In this document: positions 53,561 through 61,453 of the stretch, one piece after another
Layout: every line of letters begins with the position of its first letter
Position numbering within the stretch: position 1 is the stretch's first letter
DNA from: Phycisphaeraceae bacterium
Lineage (GTDB): Bacteria > Planctomycetota > Phycisphaerae > Phycisphaerales > UBA1924
Direction: 5' to 3'
Assembly: GCA_019636655.1 (NCBI GenBank)
Contig: JAHBXB010000007.1
Location: 1 to 64,000, forward strand
Length of the DNA: 64,000 nucleotides
Notes under the pieces: generated by a model
What the model saw: only the letters and a program-made list of their open reading frames with translations
Databases searched by the model: none
Told to the model about the DNA's origin: nothing
Program-made: the position numbers and the translations under genes

Positions 53561-55534
53561 ATGAGCGACGCCGCTTCGACGCCCCCGATCGTCGGGATCG
53601 ACCTGGGAACGACCAACAGCCTGGTCGCGGTCGCCGCGTGGCCGGCGGCGGACGCGGCCGGCGCGCCGCCGCGGGTGATCCCGGATGAGCAGGGGCGGGC
53701 GCTATGCCCCAGCGCGGTGCGGTTCAACGCCGATGGGACGACGACGATCGGGCACGAGGCGCGGGACGGAGCGGTGGAGTTCCCGCTCTCGACGGTGCTG
53801 AGCGTCAAACGGCTCATGGGGCGGTCGATCGCCGATGCCGGCGAGGACCTGAAGTACCTCTCGTTCCGCGTGGTGGAGGGGCCGCACGAGACGGCGAGGG
53901 TCGAGATCCCCGCGGCGGCGGACGGGGAGGCCCCCCGCGTGGTGTCGCCGCAGGAGGTGTCGGCCCTGATCCTGCGGAGGCTGCGGGAGCAGGTGTCGCG
54001 GGCGCTGGGGGTGGAGGTCGGCCGGGCGGTGGTGACGGTGCCGGCGTACTTCGACGATGCGCAGCGGCAGGCGACGCGCGATGCGGGGCGCCTGGCGGGG
54101 CTGGAGGTGGTGCGGATCGTGAACGAGCCGACCGCCGCGGCGCTGGCGTACGGCGTCGGGGTCGGCGCCGGCGCGGGGCCGCAGACGATCGCGGTGTACG
54201 ACCTGGGCGGCGGGACATTCGATGTGTCGATCCTGCGGCTGACGCCGGCGGAGAAGGAGGAGGAGGGACACGCGGCGGGTGCGGATGCGTTCCAGGTGCT
54301 GGCGACGGCGGGGGACACGCACCTGGGGGGAGATGACTTTGACCACGCGCTGATGGACCTGTTCACGGGCGAGATCGCCGCGGCGTTCTTCCCGGGACCG
54401 GCGGGGATGCCGCGGCTTGATCCGTCGACGCGGCGCGCGGTGCGGGAGTTCGCGGAGCGGACCAAGATCCGGCTGTCGGAGGCGGAATCCGCCTCGGTGC
54501 GGATCGACCTGGGGCCGGGCGCGGACGGCGCGGCGAGGGTGTACGAGCGGACGATCGCGCGGGCCGAGTTCGAGGCGCTGGTGGCGCCGCTGGTGGACCG
54601 GACGATCTCGGCGTGTCGGCGGGCGATGAAGGATGCGCGCCGGGCGATCGACGACGCGGGGGGCGATAAGGTGGCGTGCGTGGTGCTGGTGGGCGGGGCG
54701 ACGCGGACACCGCTGGTGCGGGCGCGGGTACGGGAGTTCTTCGGCCTCGAGCCGTACACGGCGCTGGACCCCGACCTGGTGGTGGCGCTGGGAGCGGCGG
54801 TGCAGGGGTCGGTGCTGTCGGGGGCGACCCGGTCGGCGCTGCTGCTGGACGTGGTGCCGCTGTCGCTGGGGATCGAGACGGTGGGGGGCGCGGTGGCGAA
54901 GCTGGTGGTGCGCAACTCGACGGTGCCGGCGCGGGCGACGGAGATGTTCTCGACCTCGGTGGACGGGCAGACGTCGATCAAGCTGCACGTGCTGCAGGGT
55001 GAGCGGGAGATGGCGGCGGACTGCCGGTCGCTCGGGGTGTTCCACCTGACGGGGATCCCGCCGATGCCGGCGGGGATTCCGCAGGTGCAGGTGGAGTTCC
55101 TGGTGGACGCCAACGGGATCCTGAACGTGTCGGCGGTGGAGCGGCGGTCGGGGAAGCGGGCGGCGCTGCAGGTGGTGCCGCGGCACGGGCTGACGCGGGA
55201 CGAGGTGGAGCGGATGGAGGCGGAGTCGCTGGCGAACGCGCGGGAGGACATGGCGCGGCACCGCGTGGTGGACCTGATCGCGAACGCGCGGCTGGACCTG
55301 CACTGGATCGCGCCGCAACTGGCGCGGCACGGGGCGCGCCTGGAGCCGGGGGCACGGGCGGAACTGGAGGCGCGGCTGGCGGCGCTGCGGGGGCTGGTCG
55401 AGGCGGCGGAGCGGGATTGGCGGGGGGTGGACGCCAACGCGTTCCACGCGGCGAAGGAGGCGGTGGACCGCGCCAGCGTGCGGCTGCACGAGATCGCGAT
55501 CGCGGAGTCGCTGAAGGGGACGTCTAGCGCGTGA
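53561..55534 (+). CDS. Hsp70-family chaperone, HscA type
   Basis: The product is 657 residues from the ATG at 53561. The nucleotide-binding domain is complete: VGIDLGTTNSLVAVAAW (phosphate 1), VTVPAYFDDAQRQATRDAGR, VNEPTAAALAYGVG, VYDLGGGTFDVSILRL (phosphate 2), and VVLVGGATRTPLVRARVREF (adenosine). The substrate-binding domain begins LGIETVGGAVAKLV and includes LNVSAVERRSGKRAALQVVP, and the alpha lid lacks the long DnaK tail. The features DISIL-LGGDDFDHALMDLF and HGLTRDEVERM put it nearer HscA, which assists iron-sulphur assembly, than DnaK. An extra ~12 residues (EKEEEGHAAGAD) lie in the first domain. No hscB, iscU or fdx lies nearby. Confidence 0.85.
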   Translation: MSDAASTPPIVGIDLGTTNSLVAVAAWPAADAAGAPPRVIPDEQGRALCPSAVRFNADGTTTIGHEARDGAVEFPLSTVLSVKRLMGRSIADAGEDLKYLSFRVVEGPHETARVEIPAAADGEAPRVVSPQEVSALILRRLREQVSRALGVEVGRAVVTVPAYFDDAQRQATRDAGRLAGLEVVRIVNEPTAAALAYGVGVGAGAGPQTIAVYDLGGGTFDVSILRLTPAEKEEEGHAAGADAFQVLATAGDTHLGGDDFDHALMDLFTGEIAAAFFPGPAGMPRLDPSTRRAVREFAERTKIRLSEAESASVRIDLGPGADGAARVYERTIARAEFEALVAPLVDRTISACRRAMKDARRAIDDAGGDKVACVVLVGGATRTPLVRARVREFFGLEPYTALDPDLVVALGAAVQGSVLSGATRSALLLDVVPLSLGIETVGGAVAKLVVRNSTVPARATEMFSTSVDGQTSIKLHVLQGEREMAADCRSLGVFHLTGIPPMPAGIPQVQVEFLVDANGILNVSAVERRSGKRAALQVVPRHGLTRDEVERMEAESLANAREDMARHRVVDLIANARLDLHWIAPQLARHGARLEPGARAELEARLAALRGLVEAAERDWRGVDANAFHAAKEAVDRASVRLHEIAIAESLKGTSSA

Positions 55535-56093
55535 CGCGGTAGACGGCTTCGAGGCGCTTCTCCTGGTCGTGCTCGCTCTTCATGGAGAAGGTGGCCTTGA
55601 TGGTCATCCAGGGCTCCCGTCCCTCGCCCTGGGTCCAGGCGATGAGCCACGCGGGGAGGCCGCCCAGGTGGACGATGTAGGAGCGGGTGACGAGGTCGTC
55701 GTACATCAGCGCGTTCTCGGCGGGGTTGGAGAGGTCGACGTTCCAGATCAGCGCCTGCGTCTCGGTCATGTCGGGATCGGTGGCGCTGCCGGTGGGGCGG
55801 TACAGCTCGATCCGGAGATCGCCCAGGGCCTTGGTGACCTGGCCGAAGCGGTCCTTGAACTCGATGTGGCAGACGAGCTGGTCGGTCCACTGGCCGGCGC
55901 TGTCGCGCTCGCGCGAGAAGCGGGTGAGCGGGAGGAGGCGCATGCGCTCGGCGGCGAACGAGCCCGGAGCCGTGGCGCCCGAGGGGTCGGGCTTGGCGGC
56001 GTCGCCCTCCGAGGCGCACGCGGAGAGGAGCGCCGCGGCGGCGACGAGGGCGGCGGCGAGGGTTGAGGCGGTGGTGGTGGTGGGTACGTTCAC
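55524..56093 (-). CDS. Lipoprotein of unknown function
   Basis: The product is 189 residues with a GTG start ending 56093. The N-terminus MNVPTTTTASTLAAALVAAA runs to the lipobox LLSAC. Mature sequence includes CHIEFKDRFGQVTKALGDLR, IWNVDLSNPAENALMYDDLV, a basic-free surface, and GLPAWLIAWTQGEGREPWMT ending in ATFSMKSEHDQEKRLEA. There is no recognised family. The 3' end overlaps the Hsp70 stop by 11 bp (convergent), and a TAGACT hexamer sits six nt before the start codon with no ribosome site. It is immediately downstream of the virion-like cassette in the same direction but belongs to a separate unit by promoter. Confidence 0.6.
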   Translation of the reverse strand: MNVPTTTTASTLAAALVAAAALLSACASEGDAAKPDPSGATAPGSFAAERMRLLPLTRFSRERDSAGQWTDQLVCHIEFKDRFGQVTKALGDLRIELYRPTGSATDPDMTETQALIWNVDLSNPAENALMYDDLVTRSYIVHLGGLPAWLIAWTQGEGREPWMTIKATFSMKSEHDQEKRLEAVYRVTR

Positions 56094-56099
56094 GGGCAG

Positions 56100-56105
56100 A
56101 GTCTA
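56100..56105 (-). promoter_or_regulatory. Candidate -10 element (TAGACT), leaderless
   Basis: TAGACT ends six nt before the GTG on the minus strand (spacer CTGCCC), within the 14-bp gap after the holin-like gene. Confidence 0.35.
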
Positions 56106-56107
56106 CT

Positions 56108-56407
56108 TCACGCATCGGCGGCGCGGCGGGCGGGCGGGGCCGGCGTCGGGGGAGGGGGCTGGTGGAGGCGGTCGAGCAGCTCGACGGCGCGGCGCTGGCC
56201 GAGTTCGACGGCGGTCATGGCGCGGGTGTTCTGGTCGAGGGCGGCGATAAGGACGCTGAGTTGCTGGCGGTTCTCCATGAGGCGCTGGTGGGCCTCGCCG
56301 AGCTGCTGCTCGCGGGCGGCGGCGCTGCGGCGCTCGGAGAGCCACATCCAGCCGACGAGGCCGGCGACGCCGAACTGAGCAACTGCGGAGGCGACTTCTG
56401 CTTCCAT
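56108..56407 (-). CDS. Holin-like single-helix protein of the virion cassette
   Basis: The product is 99 residues: MEAEVASAVAQFGVAGLVGW then one hydrophobic segment (AVAQFGVAGLVGWMWL, ~10-25), an amphipathic coiled-coil region (GEAHQRLMENRQQLSVLIAA) and a Pro-rich tail (PPPPTPAPPARR). The layout resembles small phage membrane proteins placed at the end of structural operons; lysis is not demonstrated. The ATG ends 56407 behind AGGAGC. The tail may be partly out of register with real protein, as the family is unknown. Confidence 0.45.
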   Translation of the reverse strand: MEAEVASAVAQFGVAGLVGWMWLSERRSAAAREQQLGEAHQRLMENRQQLSVLIAALDQNTRAMTAVELGQRRAVELLDRLHQPPPPTPAPPARRAADA

Positions 56408-56436
56408 GGGGCGTGCTCCTGTATCGGGTGGGCGGC

Positions 56437-56835
56437 TTAGCTGCCGCCGGGTGGAGGGAGGAGGAACTTGAGGAAGCGGGCGGTGTAGGCGAGGCTGACC
56501 AGACGGGCGCGGTCGGTGCGGTCGGCGGGGGTGAAGAGGACGAAGGACATGTTCTTCCACTCGTGCCCGGCGTGGTCGGCGAGGCTGCCGGTGCTGGAGG
56601 GATCGGCGAGTTCCTCGGCGATGGCGGCGATGAGTTCCTGGAGGGCGGCGTCGGTGGGGGCGACGAGCCGGCCGCGGACGACGACGGCCTCTTCGAGGGG
56701 GCCGATCCACGTGGTGCCGGGGATGGGGCCGGCGCCGAGGCGGATGGTGGGGAGGAGCTGAGAGCCGATGGGCTCGGTGGCGAAGCGATGGGGGCCGGAT
56801 CCGAAGAGGTCCTTGCCCTTGAAACTGCTGCTCAT
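56437..56835 (-). CDS. Unassigned virion-cassette protein
   Basis: The product is 132 residues: MSSSFKGKDLFGSGPHRFAT, then PTIRLGAGPIPGTTWIGP, GRLVAPTDAALQELIAAIAE, and a final RARLVSLAYTARFLKFLLPP. The opening SFKGKDLFGSGPHRF and the GRLxAxTDxxL pair are reminiscent of proteins found with phage tails and neck proteins, but no family can be stated. The GGAACC leader precedes the ATG. It lies 29 bp upstream of the holin-like gene. Confidence 0.5.
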   Translation of the reverse strand: MSSSFKGKDLFGSGPHRFATEPIGSQLLPTIRLGAGPIPGTTWIGPLEEAVVVRGRLVAPTDAALQELIAAIAEELADPSSTGSLADHAGHEWKNMSFVLFTPADRTDRARLVSLAYTARFLKFLLPPPGGS

Positions 56836-56867
56836 GGGGCGGTTCCTTGGGAGGCTGGAGGTGCGGG

Positions 56868-57281
56868 CTACGGGAGCGCGGGGGCTGCGGAGATGGAGAC
56901 GGGGTCCGCCGCGCCGGTGGCGGAGAGGACGAGGAGGGTGATGGTCTGGGTCGCGGCCTTGGCGGAGACCTGGTGGCTGACAGCGGTGACGACGGCGGTT
57001 GCGGCGAGGCGGCGGCGTGAGGCGTCGGAGGCGTTGGGAGAGGTGACGAGCGAGAGGGCGCCCTGCTCACCGGGGATGGGCGGGGCGAGGTCGTCGCGCA
57101 GGATGCGGCGGACGATGCGGATCTGGACGCGCTGCTCGGGCACATCGGCGAGGACGCAGTAGGGGCCGGAATCGGACCATTCCTCGGCGAGGCGCGTGGC
57201 GGTGCGGTCGAGCAGGACCGCGTCGGTGTCGGCGAGGGTGCGGCCGGCGAAGGTGACGCTGGATGGATTGAGGATGATCAT
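56868..57281 (-). CDS. Unassigned virion-cassette protein, possibly tail-tube-like
   Basis: The product is 137 residues from the ATG ending 57281 (MIILNPSSVTFAGRTLADTD). Further sequence: DRTATRLAEEWSDSGPYCVL, ADVPEQRVQIRIVRRILRDD, and IPGEQGALSLVTSPNASDAS, ending TQTITLLVLSATGAADPVSI. The alternating strands with an EQRVQIRIVR core and a late ...SATGAADPVSI strand look like a small beta-barrel tail-tube or connector protein. This is inference. Upstream in-frame sequence (to 57590) is a shadow of the next gene. Confidence 0.5.
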   Translation of the reverse strand: MIILNPSSVTFAGRTLADTDAVLLDRTATRLAEEWSDSGPYCVLADVPEQRVQIRIVRRILRDDLAPPIPGEQGALSLVTSPNASDASRRRLAATAVVTAVSHQVSAKAATQTITLLVLSATGAADPVSISAAPALP

Positions 57282-57327
57282 GCGGCTCTCGTGTCGTTGC
57301 GTGATGGAGAAGAGGAGGCGGCGCGAG

Positions 57328-57945
57328 TCAGGCCCTGGTCCAGCGGCCGGCGCTGAGGGAGCGGGAGTGATCGGGGAGGCCGTCGCCATCGAGGTCGAGG
57401 CGGGCGACGGCGCGGGTGCGCTCGTGCACCGCGCGGAGGCGGTAGGCCTCGGCGCGGAACGCGGCCGGGGACTGGGGGCCGGTCGACGCGGCGGCGGCGT
57501 CGTAGACCAGCCCGAGCGCGATGAGGGATTCGAGGAGGCGCAGCGAGCGGGCGTTGGTGATGCGCGACTCGGCGGGGTCGCCGGGTTCAACGCCGATCAT
57601 GCGCAGGACGGAGGCGTGGGCGAGGGCGATCTGCGGGAGGAACGTGGTGACGGTCACGGGCTGGGCGGTGAGCGTCGGCGGGGTGACGGGCGGGGACTCG
57701 GAGTCCAGGCGCGGGCGGGAGACTTCGAGCACGGTGGCGGTGGTGCGGGCGAGCACCTCGAGCGGGACGCCGCCGACGAGGACGACGTGCCCGGTCGTGA
57801 CGCCGGGGGAGGCCGCGTCGCCGGTGATGGTGAGGGTGGCGCCGGAGGTGGAGCCTGTGGTCTCGAGGATGCGCTGGGCGAGGAAGGAGATGTCGCGGAA
57901 GAGGGAGGGTTCGAGGATGAGCAGGTCACGGTCGGCTGCGAACAT
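57328..57945 (-). CDS. Connector-like protein of the virion cassette
   Basis: The product is 205 residues from the ATG ending 57945, with CCGGGGGACCACCAC just upstream (the shared leader). Sequence: MFAADRDLLILEPSLFRDIS, then FLAQRILETTGSTSGATLTI, GHVVLVGGVPLEVLARTTAT and, in the second half, SRITNARSLRLLESLIALGL followed by VHERTRAVARLDLDGDGLPD. The position between the capsid protein and the small distal proteins fits a head-completion or adaptor protein. LDLDGDGLPD is a calcium-loop-like motif. No family match can be claimed. Confidence 0.5.
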   Translation of the reverse strand: MFAADRDLLILEPSLFRDISFLAQRILETTGSTSGATLTITGDAASPGVTTGHVVLVGGVPLEVLARTTATVLEVSRPRLDSESPPVTPPTLTAQPVTVTTFLPQIALAHASVLRMIGVEPGDPAESRITNARSLRLLESLIALGLVYDAAAASTGPQSPAAFRAEAYRLRAVHERTRAVARLDLDGDGLPDHSRSLSAGRWTRA

Positions 57946-58137
57946 GTGGTGGTCCCCCGGTGAGGCGTGCGTGCGAGGCGAGCGTGAGTCGATGCGTGAG
58001 GCAAGAACGTGAACGGCGGATCGGAGAGCGTCCCCCCCGTCCGCCTGGAAGCCGTGGTGCGCGGCGCCGCGTGTCATGGGCCGCCGCGGGCACGTCGGGC
58101 TTCACCCCCCTCCCCCCTGAGGGCTCGCGCGAAAGGG

Positions 58138-59307
58138 CTAGACGGAGAGGCCGCGGATCATGCCGTGGGCGTTCTCGTTGAGGCACTCGAGGGTGTACTC
58201 GCCGAGGACCATGCCGGCCTCGGAGTCGCCGGCGCTGGCGACGGGCTTGAAGGCGAACGAGCGGCCCTGGAGCGGGAGGACGCTGAGGCGCGAGGAATCC
58301 AGGAGCAGGAGCGCATCGGCGGGGACCCAGCGGGAGAGGACGACGCGGCAGACGCCGAAGTCGCTCTCGTAGACGCTGACGAGGTCGGAGACGCGGGTGT
58401 CGGCGGGGGTGTAGCCGCGGGAGGCGCTGATGAAGGAGTTGATGCGTCGTTTCTGTGCTCCGCCGACGACGATGGTGTCGACCGAGCCGTTGCTCTGTTC
58501 CCAGACGGCGCGGAGGGCGGTGTTGAGGAGCGACTCGGTGAGGTCGGTGCCACCGCCGCCGCCGACCGGGAATCCGCCCTGGCCGGGGGTGAAGGCGTTG
58601 GTGGTGATGAACTTGATGATGCCGGTCATGGAGCGGCGGACGGTGGCGGAGCCCTGCGGGTTCGCGGCGGGCGAGACGCCGTTGATGACGCAGTTCTCGA
58701 GGTCGCGGAGGAGTTCGCGGAGGCGCTCCTGCTTCTGGTAGTCGATCTCGTCGGCGACGCCGCCGGCCTGGCGCGCGGCCTGCATGGAGCCGGAGACCTC
58801 GACGCTGGAGGAGAAGATCTGGGTGTAGTTGCGGCGGCGGAGGCGGCTGGTGGCGAGCACGGGCGGGCGGGAGTCGCCCTCGAGCGCGGCGTTGCCGAGG
58901 ATGAAGAGTTTGAGGGAGTTGGCGAGGGTGGCGGGGGTGGTGCCGCCGTAGGCGCGGACGACGGTGAGGACGCTTCCGGCGATAGCGGTGACGAGCATCA
59001 CCTCGCGGGAGGCGTCGGGGCGGACCTGGTCGCCGACGCGGAAGCGATCGGCGTTGACGACGGTGATGGCGGTCGCGGACTGGGGCGACGGGGTGAACGT
59101 GGACTGGTTGATGGTGTCGGTGTTGGGGAGCAGCGAGTCCTCGAGCCACTCGTGGATGGTGCTGGTGGCGGCGCGCTTCGCGTCGCCCAGGTAGTCCAGG
59201 AGCGGGGTCTCGAAGGGGCTGACGATGCCGACGATGTCGGCGACGTCCTCCATGAGTTCGGGCAGGTCGGCGCCGGCGGTGAAGGTTGCTCTTCCGGTGA
59301 AGGCCAT
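58138..59307 (-). CDS. Major capsid protein (DUF5309/SU10-like HK97 fold)
   Basis: The product is 389 residues from the ATG ending 59307, preceded by AAGGGGGACACC. The pattern is that of SU10-type major capsid proteins: N-terminal TGRATFTAGADLPELMEDVA and VSPFETPLLDYLGDAKRAAT (the DxxxPFxTPLLxxL start), KRAATSTIHEWLEDSL, a central DEIDYQKQERLRELLRDLEN helix (spine), the glycine-rich loop GQGGFPVGGGGGTDLTESLL, and VYESDFGVCRVVLSRWVPAD with QGRSFAFKP near the C-terminus (A-domain). Assembly into a capsid would be expected with the portal and scaffold upstream. No maturation protease is visible nearby. Confidence 0.78.
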   Translation of the reverse strand: MAFTGRATFTAGADLPELMEDVADIVGIVSPFETPLLDYLGDAKRAATSTIHEWLEDSLLPNTDTINQSTFTPSPQSATAITVVNADRFRVGDQVRPDASREVMLVTAIAGSVLTVVRAYGGTTPATLANSLKLFILGNAALEGDSRPPVLATSRLRRRNYTQIFSSSVEVSGSMQAARQAGGVADEIDYQKQERLRELLRDLENCVINGVSPAANPQGSATVRRSMTGIIKFITTNAFTPGQGGFPVGGGGGTDLTESLLNTALRAVWEQSNGSVDTIVVGGAQKRRINSFISASRGYTPADTRVSDLVSVYESDFGVCRVVLSRWVPADALLLLDSSRLSVLPLQGRSFAFKPVASAGDSEAGMVLGEYTLECLNENAHGMIRGLSV

Positions 59308-59375
59308 GATGGTGTCCCCCTTGTGTGCTGTGCGGTCGGTGGTGCGAACGGGAAACGGTGAGTGAGTCGGTGGCG

Positions 59376-59807
59376 TCAGTGGTTGCGGCGGGCGCGCAGG
59401 TAGCCCATGACGCTGCGGCGGTCGCCGGTGCGGGCGGCGTGACCGGCGAGGGTGCTCAGGTTGTCGGGCGGTTCGGCGGTCGGGTGGGCCCCCATGGAGG
59501 GCGTCGCGGCGCCGGCGCGGAAGAGGTAGGGCTTCTTGCGGCGGAGTTCGCGAACAGCCTCCTCGATGCGGGGCGGATCCTGGCCGGCGATCAGGCGTTC
59601 GACGAGGACCTGCGCGGTGTCGAGGTCGAAGGCGTGGTGCTGGATCAGGGCCGATTGGACGCGCCGGGCGCGGTCGGATTCGCCCAGGGCTGTGCGCGCT
59701 GCGCCCAGTTCGGATTCGAGCGAGGCGACGCGGGCCTGGAGTTGGCCGATCTCGCCGCTTGCCTGCGGATTGAAGGTGGAGTTGGTGGTTGTCGCGGTGT
59801 CGTTCAT
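59376..59807 (-). CDS. Scaffold-like protein of the virion cassette
   Basis: The product is 143 residues from the ATG ending 59807, preceded by AAGGGGGACCCAC. After an Asn/Thr-rich start it is a long charged coiled coil (EIGQLQARVASLESELGAAR and the following helix), then HHAFDLDTAQVLVERLIAGQ and RRKKPYLFRAGAA, ending GDRRSVMGYLRARRNH. Its short length, helical character, basic C-terminus and position between portal and capsid genes are typical of phage scaffolds; it is assigned from context only. Confidence 0.55.
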   Translation of the reverse strand: MNDTATTTNSTFNPQASGEIGQLQARVASLESELGAARTALGESDRARRVQSALIQHHAFDLDTAQVLVERLIAGQDPPRIEEAVRELRRKKPYLFRAGAATPSMGAHPTAEPPDNLSTLAGHAARTGDRRSVMGYLRARRNH

Positions 59808-59887
59808 GTGGGTCCCCCTTGTCGTGGTGGTGCGAGAGGCTTGGTGGTGCGGGTTGACGGTGGGTGCGAGGACGCGCTGGGCGCGGG

Positions 59888-61453
59888 CTACTCGACGCCC
59901 GGGTCGGCGTCGGGGCCGGCGGCGTAGCCGAGTTCCTTGAGGACGGTGGCGGCGGGGACGCCGAGGTCGCGCTTGGCCTTGGCCTCGATGAGTCGCTGGG
60001 CGGTGTCGGGCTCCAGCGGGTCGGGCCAGTCGATGCGGACGAGGCGGTCGTGCTCGGCGGTCTGTAGGACGCCGGCGTGGTGCAGCGCGGTGAGGACGAG
60101 GCGGCAGACCTGGGCGAGGCCGCGCCCGTAGGTGACGCGCTTGCGGGCGGTGCGGGAGAGCAGGCCGGCAAGGGTGATGCGCAGGGCGTTCTCGCTGGTG
60201 AGGTTGCCGACCTTGCCCTGGACGACGCCCGTGGCGAGGGGCGGGACGCCGCTGGCCTTGTCGAGGGCTTCGCGGAGTTCCTCGATGTGGCGGTCCTCGC
60301 TGGGCGAGGCGGCGTCGCCGCCGAATGCGTCGATGGACGCCGCGGGGTTGTCCGTGGACCAGACGGTGCCGGGCCCGACCGGTGCGCGGTCGACGCCGTC
60401 GATGCCCTTGCAGAGGTACATCTTGAAGGACTGCATGGTGACGCGGCTGGCGCGGTCGCTGAGGCGGGTGTTCAGTTCGTCCTGGAGGGGGATCAGCGGC
60501 TCGACCTCTCCGAGGCCCTCGAAGGCGAAGGGCTGGCTCTGGTTCTGGATGTGGACGACCGGGACGATCCCGGGCGCGATGGTGTTGGGCCCCTCGCCCA
60601 CGAGGCGCATGGCGCCGGGTCCGGCGGCGTCGAAGTCCCCCTGGTAGCGCTGCCAATGGCGCGGCGAGAGGATCTCGGTGACGGTTTCGAGCCGGCGTCG
60701 GCGGGCGCCGGGGAGGTCGTCGGCGCCCGGGTCGGCGCCGCGCCCGAGGAAGCGGCGGATGGGGCGGGCAAAGCCGGATGGGGCGGGCTCGACGGCGGCG
60801 CTCTCGCGCTGGTAGTGGAGGATGTAGGCGTCGATGATGCGGAAGTCGTCGGGGTTCAGCAGGGCCAGGCCGCGGGTGGGCTCGACGGCTTCGATCCGCG
60901 CGGCGGCGGCGGGGTCGGCCGGGTCGGCGCCGGGCTGATGAATGGGGGAAGCGGGCGCCGGGCGGACGATGAGATCGACGTGCCCGTAGACGTGGGCGAG
61001 CAGGGCGAGGTCCTGGAGGAGGGCGATGCCGCCGGAGGCTTCCCAGACGCGGTCGAGAGCGGCCTCGATGCGGGAGCGGGTGCGGGGGTCGTCGGCGAGG
61101 GAGACGAAGCGCAGCGGGCGGCCGAACATGAACTCGATCATGGTGTGGAGGCGCCAGGCGATGTCGTTCTCGATGACGACCTCCTTGTCGGCGCGCGGGC
61201 CGTCGCCGGGGAGGGGTGCGGGCTCATCGCGGAAGCGGTGGGGGAGGCCCTGTTCCTGGCCGAGGCGGTAGGGCTTTGCAAGGCGCGAGCCGGGTCGGGG
61301 CGAGAGGCGGGTGACGGGGTTGCGGTAGTAGGCCCAGAGGCGCCGGAAGCGAGGGAGGGAGACGCCCTCGTGGTGGGCGATGAGAGAGAGGAGGAGGGCG
61401 TCGCTGAGGCCTCGGGGGCCGACGTCGGCGAAGGGTGTCAGGATGTAGCCCAT
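59888..61453 (-). CDS. Phage portal protein (SPP1 gp6-like/DUF1073-type)
   Basis: The product is 521 residues from the ATG ending 61453, preceded by AAAGGGGACACC. N-terminal region: SDALLLSLIAHHEGVSLPRF, YRNPVTRLSPRPGSRLAKPY. Core: VIENDIAWRLHTMIEFMFGR, YGHVDLIVRPAP, RGLALLNPDDFRIIDAYILH. Characteristic portal segments: VVHIQNQSQPFAFEGLGEVE, PLIPLQDELNTRLSDRASRV and TSENALRITLAGLLSRTARK. The protein should form the dodecameric entry ring for DNA. Its terminase partner is missing from this window. A large intergenic region (400 bp) precedes it. Confidence 0.75.
   Translation of the reverse strand: MGYILTPFADVGPRGLSDALLLSLIAHHEGVSLPRFRRLWAYYRNPVTRLSPRPGSRLAKPYRLGQEQGLPHRFRDEPAPLPGDGPRADKEVVIENDIAWRLHTMIEFMFGRPLRFVSLADDPRTRSRIEAALDRVWEASGGIALLQDLALLAHVYGHVDLIVRPAPASPIHQPGADPADPAAAARIEAVEPTRGLALLNPDDFRIIDAYILHYQRESAAVEPAPSGFARPIRRFLGRGADPGADDLPGARRRRLETVTEILSPRHWQRYQGDFDAAGPGAMRLVGEGPNTIAPGIVPVVHIQNQSQPFAFEGLGEVEPLIPLQDELNTRLSDRASRVTMQSFKMYLCKGIDGVDRAPVGPGTVWSTDNPAASIDAFGGDAASPSEDRHIEELREALDKASGVPPLATGVVQGKVGNLTSENALRITLAGLLSRTARKRVTYGRGLAQVCRLVLTALHHAGVLQTAEHDRLVRIDWPDPLEPDTAQRLIEAKAKRDLGVPAATVLKELGYAAGPDADPGVE

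Follow-up and report, generated by a model that had tools for sequence, protein, structure and literature searches.

The present analysis concerns a cassette of virus-type structural genes in Phycisphaeraceae bacterium (assembly GCA_019636655.1; phylum Planctomycetota, class Phycisphaerae), located within the first 64,000 nucleotides of contig JAHBXB010000007.1, a stretch that is referred to below as the window. The first-pass annotation of the window had described seven co-directional, intact genes at 56108-61453. These were confirmed at exactly these positions; each starts with ATG and most of the seven are preceded by a purine-rich stretch. The description of a seven-gene block was right in its seven genes and one gene short of the complete block, which consists of eight minus-strand genes at 55524-61453:

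59888..61453, minus strand: portal protein, 521 amino acids (aa); SPP1_portal PF05133 at E 1.8e-8 (above cut-off) and phrog_104 at 2.7e-21.
59376..59807, minus strand: scaffold-like protein, 143 aa, between the portal and the major capsid protein in most cassettes; only sub-threshold families (Phage_scaffold 0.041).
58138..59307, minus strand: SU10-type major capsid protein (MCP), 389 aa; SU10_MCP PF17236 at 4.4e-84.
57328..57945, minus strand: g4, candidate head-tail adaptor/connector, 205 aa, directly behind the MCP; homologues in 79 loci.
56868..57281, minus strand: g5, tail-tube-fold protein, 137 aa, from an AlphaFold model and structure comparison.
56437..56835, minus strand: g6, Dit/baseplate-fold protein, 132 aa, from an AlphaFold model and structure comparison.
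56108..56407, minus strand: g7, holin/spanin-like protein, 99 aa; phrog_89 (Rz-like spanin) at 1.2e-4, one hydrophobic stretch (by eye).
55524..56093, minus strand: lipoprotein-like gene, 189 aa, GTG start, beginning 14 bases past g7; the eighth member of the block.

Judged from the profile matches, firm family assignment is limited to the portal and the MCP. Profile scans returned no convincing family for the 205, 137 and 132 aa proteins (g4, g5 and g6) and no Pfam or PHROG family for the lipoprotein, and a profile search of solved structures gave no significant match for any of these four. By its position alone, g4 is a candidate adaptor, and the lipoprotein is a possible outer-membrane lysis partner of g7. 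The profile of the scaffold-like protein found matches in 81 loci, picking up coiled segments too, and the gene went undetected in the cassettes of L013 and L051. Homologues of g7 were present in 41 loci and those of the lipoprotein in 33, mostly immediately behind g7.

AlphaFold models of g5 and g6, built from alignments of 37 and 35 sequences, reached a mean pLDDT of 91.7 and 91.6, respectively. The best Foldseek match of g5 had an E of only 1.3e-3, with phage necks and tail tubes at the top of the list. Comparison by VIA gave a Z of 10.5 to the tail tube protein 8gtb_A (root-mean-square deviation, rmsd, 3.1 over 120 residues) and a Z of 9.1 to chain 6tba_50 of the virion of RcGTA, a gene transfer agent (GTA); the VIA matches listed were tail-tube, neck, baseplate and Hcp entries. 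For g6, Foldseek returned the phage baseplate chain 8eon_A at 1.6e-4, and VIA the same chain at Z 10.5 (rmsd 4.7 over 113 residues) and the SPP1 Dit protein 2x8k_C at Z 9.9 (rmsd 3.8 over 117). By similarity of the modelled folds, g5 would be of tail-tube type and g6 of Dit/baseplate type, fold likeness being no proof of function. Two tail-type folds in the cassette suggest a head plus a rudimentary tail. The first-pass annotation had seen a virion head only, which these folds contradict; its two "small structural-type" proteins can be described instead as having tail-tube and Dit/baseplate folds.

The MCP was found in 48 of the 61 near relatives, the own genome included (44 of 57 genera), and a portal match in 50 of the 61. 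Across the class, 149 of 347 genomes (113 of 248 genera) carry the MCP, nearly always as one copy with an open frame, and identity ranges from 52 to 71% among the full-length matches listed. Of 24 MCP loci from named records, 22 are labelled as planctomycete; the other two bear the labels Vicinamibacteraceae (L045, 62%, probably a mislabel) and Fretibacterium (L057, 29%). Among 50,697 phage records, 147 match the MCP, all below 60% identity, and the 20 listed lie at 22.9-33.8%. A search for the same gene order in relatives showed portal, MCP and g4 arranged as in the window, all on a single strand, in 74 of the 76 loci in which all three are recognisable (some genomes being represented twice), which argues against a chance assembly. 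In ten pairs among the five genomes of genus g40, dN/dS by NG86 was 0.031-0.254 for the MCP (pairs with G047 resting on a 239-codon piece), 0.064-0.176 for the portal, 0.071-0.268 for g4 and 0.019-0.223 for g7; the ranges exclude the scaffold, for which short, ill-chosen segments had been compared, lipoprotein pairs with G047 (9 residues) and pairs with G051, which belongs to another genus. Values so far below 1 point to purifying selection on the cassette proteins. G047 and G311 have an in-frame stop in the MCP, and G018 and G048 have one in the portal match.

Some cassettes deviate from this pattern. Extra genes, large proteins among them, lie between g6 and g7 in G040, G044 and L040 and past g6 in G068, where two large genes have no PHROG match and no family. 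A LamG domain was detected in the large gene behind g6 of G045 (L063); a broad reading of such genes as "fibres", which would rest on this one match and a cluster link to L040, was rejected. In G021 (L064) and G045 (L063) the portal-MCP region is deleted or truncated with the other cassette genes kept, and in G048 (L062, L092) the cassette is inverted and split. At L092:2820-5099, a second integrase relative and the 5' part of a portal share one open frame, and the region may attract more than one insertion.

The cassette had been described as devoid of DNA packaging genes, which is true of the cassette itself and false for the genome. A search for a terminase elsewhere in the assembly recovered one large terminase (TerL), 527 aa, on a separate contig (C2, L088:9330-10913), matching phrog_2 at 5.3e-15 and PF17289 at its cut-off. 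Its match to Pfam Terminase_6N is sub-threshold (19.8 bits vs a cut-off of 22), and Pfam alone would miss it. TerL is present in 51 of the 61 near relatives (47 of 57 genera), that of G037 being a weak 35% fragment, and in 194 of the 347 genomes of the class, 172 of them at E<=1e-20. In an alignment of 30 TerLs, the Walker A lysine and threonine, Walker B D187 and E188, and D362, D416, D502 and D506 were kept in 30 of 30 and one Walker A glycine in 29 of 30; we take these residues to be the Walker A/B motifs of the motor and nuclease-type aspartates.

Upstream of TerL are genes for a P-loop/GNAT-like protein and a sigma-r4-like helix-turn-helix (HTH) protein. The P-loop ATPase and GNAT-like protein (phrog_886/293 type; L088:7934-9298 and homologues) lies 5' of TerL in most terminase loci inspected and was not found in the gene calls of L092, L199 and L201; a resemblance to Mom-type systems would make the pair a candidate for DNA modification. 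Divergent from the terminase operon is a repressor gene whose product combines an HTH with an S24 peptidase domain (PF00717 1.8e-17, phrog_4 1.9e-27). Nine aligned repressors all retain an AGYP cleavage-like site, the serine of G(D/E)SM and the lysine of TFKR, which we assume to be the cleavage and catalytic motifs of LexA/CI-type repressors. Their retention predicts RecA-dependent induction, and the system is probably induced by DNA damage in this way. The terminase operon is present, complete or partial, in relatives. In G026 it stands behind g5, g6, g7 and the lipoprotein with one gene between; in G211 the repressor comes after the lipoprotein; and in G068 the P-loop/GNAT pieces, TerL, portal, scaffold, MCP, g4 and g6-like genes form one contiguous cluster. 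From these arrangements, the cassette and terminase loci look like parts of a single ancestral cluster.

The two loci also occur together. Of the 347 genomes, 141 have both MCP and TerL, 8 the MCP only, 53 TerL only and 145 neither (Fisher 2.8e-41), so that 141 of 149 MCP-bearing genomes carry TerL; in 32 of the 347, a strong TerL stands without an MCP. In family f2, both genes were found in G211 alone, and G037 has the weak TerL fragment. Tree distances of the MCP and TerL correlated with those of the host gene PheT (r 0.44, n=24, and 0.62, n=20), values reached by none of 2000 permutations. The same was true between the two loci for MCP-TerL (r 0.67, n=25) and TerL-portal (0.76, n=19) and within the cassette for MCP-portal (0.65, n=25), and identity tables gave a rho of 0.56 for PheT-MCP over 39 genomes. 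The same small host genes flank TerL in 8 of the 22 genomes with flanks (families f1 and f5). Genes of host type separate the virus-derived parts in two relatives. In G044, the stretch from TerL to the portal holds gpmI-, ferredoxin- and further host-like genes; in G048, host genes separate TerL from the 5' part of a portal that is broken.

The cassette had further been said to sit between host genes. Of nine flanking proteins scanned, six belong to ordinary host families (aminotransferase, PheT, Hsp70, RRM, glycosyltransferase and aldehyde dehydrogenase), in agreement with that statement, and three are without a family. The G+C content at 56-62 kb (0.68-0.73) falls inside the range of the window (0.65-0.74), the composition of the block being that of its surroundings. 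The reported absence of an integrase was borne out at contig scale: no Phage_integrase or Recombinase match lies on the cassette contig (C7) or the terminase contig (C2). The own genome does hold six Phage_integrase matches (C1 and C3) and one Recombinase (C1), which indicate other mobile elements away from both particle loci. An integrase linked to structural genes, as in prophages, is therefore not a feature of the own genome; relatives were judged by eye from gene calls, the inserted element described below set aside. A small conserved protein of ~90 aa (L101:7313-7591 and homologues) occurs in 18 of 70 portal loci, 5' of the portal where inspected, and was not seen there in the window. A conserved gene that resembles, by eye, a GAF-type regulator was found near the cassette in three loci (L073:12655-14274, L063:10824-12341 and L054:4942-6549; cluster c24).

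The cassette is likely to supply the structural proteins of a DNA-packaging particle of viral origin that is endogenous to the class Phycisphaerae and passed on mostly vertically; such a particle would be a GTA-like viriform. The first-pass annotation had offered domestication or a GTA-like module with dispersed parts among its options, and this is the option favoured by the class-wide conservation, the purifying selection, the single copy, TerL and a repressor located elsewhere and the lack of an integrase on the contig. The alternative of a decayed prophage, by comparison, is not supported and was rejected on the conservation and dN/dS: frames are mostly intact and the same order recurs across genera. 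Frameshifted homologues or restriction to single strains had been named as signs of decay, and on these points the survey was mostly favourable, the exceptions being the stops in G047, G311, G018 and G048 and eight interrupted MCPs described below.

According to PMC9662315, GTAs are defined by six features. Three of these appear to be present here as far as sequence can tell. Caudoviricete-derived proteins that form particles are recognised by similarity (portal, SU10 MCP and TerL families plus tail-type folds), the particle being known here from genes alone. The system is fully endogenised at multiple loci, with the cassette on C7, TerL and the repressor on C2, and host genes between the parts in G044 and G048. 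Mostly vertical inheritance with co-diversification is indicated by moderate evidence from one host gene, PheT. The other three features of that definition concern the particles themselves and would be predictions for the Phycisphaerae system: a content of mostly random host DNA, a head too small to take up all of the particle's own genes, and delivery of the DNA to other cells. Like RcGTA and BhGTA, the system has caudovirus-derived head-tail genes fixed at more than one chromosomal locus, a terminase and largely host-parallel inheritance, and g5 shares the fold of the RcGTA virion chain. BhGTA is described as mitomycin C-inducible, which is what the Phycisphaerae repressor would predict. Unlike RcGTA and BhGTA, the Phycisphaerae system has an SU10-type capsid and a CI/LexA-like repressor beside TerL; its block is smaller, the tail proteins recognised in it are limited to the tail-tube and Dit types, and it belongs to another phylum. 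With SU10-like phages (PF17236) it shares the MCP family and a nearby portal, whereas its MCP is less than 60% identical to all 147 matched records and no integration gene is linked to it here. The system thus looks, and probably works, like a GTA and is not claimed to be one.

In the proposed sequence of events, DNA damage would activate RecA and the repressor would cleave itself, upon which the terminase operon, and through some further link the cassette too, would be expressed. TerL would then drive host DNA through the portal into SU10-type heads, packaging it in headful fashion, and the tail-tube and Dit proteins would close the head as a short stub tail. Finally, g7 and the lipoprotein would open the cell, and the particles would carry chromosomal DNA to kin.

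Several observations weigh against this reading. The particle, its packaged DNA and its transfer are predictions from gene content, the own genome yielded no recognisable small terminase, and the link by which one repressor would govern both loci is a proposed one. No tape measure or fibre was found, just one fibre-like query having been run on the own genome, where it had no match. The MCP has no match in 13 of the 61 relatives, including the single-contig genome G056, which retains TerL, and g5-g6 were undetected in genus g40 and several other lineages. The co-occurrence p-values ignore shared ancestry. The correlation between PheT and the portal is weaker (r 0.38, n=16, reached by 25 of 2000 permutations), and within the family alone that between PheT and MCP identity is not significant (rho 0.30, p 0.11), so that horizontal exchange of cassette genes is possible. 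The MCP tree also groups G040 (f5) with G053 (f6), and the own TerL is not at the host-gene site shared by other genomes. In addition, three viral contigs carry MCP relatives, two of them 27-29% identical and the third, L031 (IMG/VR, 41 kb), 64%. The MCP of L031 (L031:7023-8174) is sister to the L040 copy (support 0.994) and branches among the chromosomal MCPs. L031 carries a terminase of its own that is not significantly similar to the chromosomal TerL, and no portal match was found across its 41 kb. Its MCP is probably a capsid gene captured by a virus from the chromosomal lineage, or the reverse, as the tree placement suggests. Overall, the lineages with g5-g6 undetected and the 32 of 347 genomes with a strong TerL and no MCP indicate that reduction or loss of the system is under way in places.

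The alternative that survives best, at a clearly lower probability, is a domesticated particle with another job and no gene transfer, such as a lysis or killing device, an anti-phage decoy or interference particle, or a storage shell. Conservation and selection would be equally expected of it, and it agrees with the rudimentary tail, the lineages in which g5-g6 are undetected and the single fibre-like query unmatched in the own genome. Pure shells such as encapsulins need neither portal nor terminase, however, and a portal plus a TerL with conserved motor and nuclease residues in 141 of 149 MCP genomes fit DNA packaging best. An encapsulin proper was rejected: the HK97-fold shell kept by the host is a likeness (the fold of the MCP is taken from its family), yet the Phycisphaerae shell is accompanied by portal, scaffold, tail-type proteins and terminase. 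An improbable alternative is a virus, still mobile or dependent on a helper, with a genome that is divided over the chromosome and occasionally moves as a unit. The varying surroundings of the cassette between genera, the IMG/VR contig with a 64% identical MCP and its own terminase, and the contiguity of terminase-side and structural genes with further large genes in G068 speak for such a virus. Against these stand the lack of an integrase-family match on C7 and C2, the interleaved host genes of G044 and G048, the usual single copy per genome, a divergence parallel to that of the host, and L031 itself, which is without a recognisable portal relative and whose terminase has no significant match to TerL. 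Remnants of separate prophages at different stages of decay are very improbable: a few homologues hold stops or interruptions and the cassettes of G021, G045 and G048 are broken, but the same order in 74 of 76 loci, open frames in many families and dN/dS far below 1 are at odds with decay.

A second system was found inside the MCP gene. In eight genomes (G002, G004, G016, G035, G211, L054, G061 and G048), an integrase-bearing element interrupts the MCP at one place. The break in the MCP falls at codons ~57-60, with short junction sequences in common, in G002, G004, G016, G035, G211 and the named contig L054; the element ends lie on two contigs in G004, and one end is seen in L054. In G061, the integrase is a related one (58%) and what remains of the MCP begins at residue 56, and in G048 the arrangement of element and MCP is inverted and broken. 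The insert is ~10.9-11.2 kb long in the three loci measured, and 5 of the 48 near relatives with an MCP are carriers. Examples of records behind carriers are L055 (HBSAPP03) and L056 (H1_PLA1), with an MCP match beginning at residue 57. Elements related to this one, with no MCP in the stretch analysed, were seen in G034 and G045. The element loci, at one exact place of the MCP gene, are:

L058:5072-16204, inserted element.
L059:4374-15279, inserted element.
L060:4258-15170, inserted element.
L190:3740-15317, inserted element.

The element encodes a large serine integrase (phrog_95 1.2e-82 in L058) and a protease-capsid fusion (phrog_4523 4.1e-77 in L060; PF25209 2.3e-43) that differs from the host MCP, together with a HARE-HTH protein, an AAA_25 primase/helicase-type protein, a sigma-r2-like protein and one conserved protein without a family. 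The capsid gene was seen in five genomes (G002, G016, G035 in two pieces, G048 and G211) and went unrecognised in G061; the stretches of G004 and L054 did not cover that part. The cargo adjoining the 3' half of the MCP is variable: G002 and G035 match both methyltransferase and restriction-enzyme models, G016 and G211 match methyltransferase models, and G061 has an AbiEi-type protein. Among the element proteins searched, none matched a portal, terminase or tail protein, small open reading frames falling outside that search. The integrase frame runs across the junction into the antisense strand of the MCP, its C-terminus being host-derived while integrated; most integrase matches at residues ~575-640 are this antisense MCP strand from read-through and were not counted as integrases. 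The 3' half of the MCP keeps an open frame in carriers, in which a truncated shell protein is conceivable. Contig C204 of G059 was considered as a sign that cells carrying the element coexist with cells lacking it. Blastn found no match between its MCP fragment and the cassette stretch of G059 itself, and the contig was set aside as binning contamination and is not among the eight carriers.

An integrase combined with its own capsid gene, as in the element, is a feature that we take to be typical of capsid-forming phage-inducible chromosomal islands (cfPICIs). With its own capsid and with no portal or terminase among the proteins searched, the element looks like a satellite of the host particle. 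It resembles cfPICIs and other satellites, as described in PMC11389934, in its integrase, primase/helicase, own capsid gene, defence-type cargo and lack of detected tail genes. Unlike a cfPICI, it occupies the shell gene of a particle system that is chromosomal and not a phage and, with no portal or terminase among its searched proteins, would need those of the host. The capsid gene in two pieces in G035 and the stops within the integrase match of G048 weigh against an active satellite. A three-level system can be suggested tentatively: a class-wide, SOS-controlled GTA-like particle, TerL in trans, and an ~11-kb satellite family living off the particle, in which serine-integrase insertion would silence or truncate the host shell, and an element with its own protease-capsid and restriction-modification cargo would spread via the portal, terminase and tail of the host. 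In such a system a domesticated gene-transfer particle would itself be parasitised, and excision of the element might switch the host particle on or off.

PMC9662315 names alphaproteobacteria, one deltaproteobacterium, one spirochaete and one archaeon as the organisms with documented GTAs. Searches of open-access papers for GTAs, capsids, prophages and domesticated phage of planctomycetes and Phycisphaerae, with subscription papers and preprints outside the scope, met no title or passage on this system. Hexagonal particles of ~30 nm have been reported for the planctomycete strain ZRK32 (PMC10945688). If the reading as a GTA-like particle is true, a class-wide particle with its motor in trans and an SOS-type repressor would represent a domestication that arose independently, in a phylum that is abundant and for the most part uncultured. 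A satellite in the shell gene would suggest that the particles are worth parasitising, which would be an indirect argument that they still move DNA.

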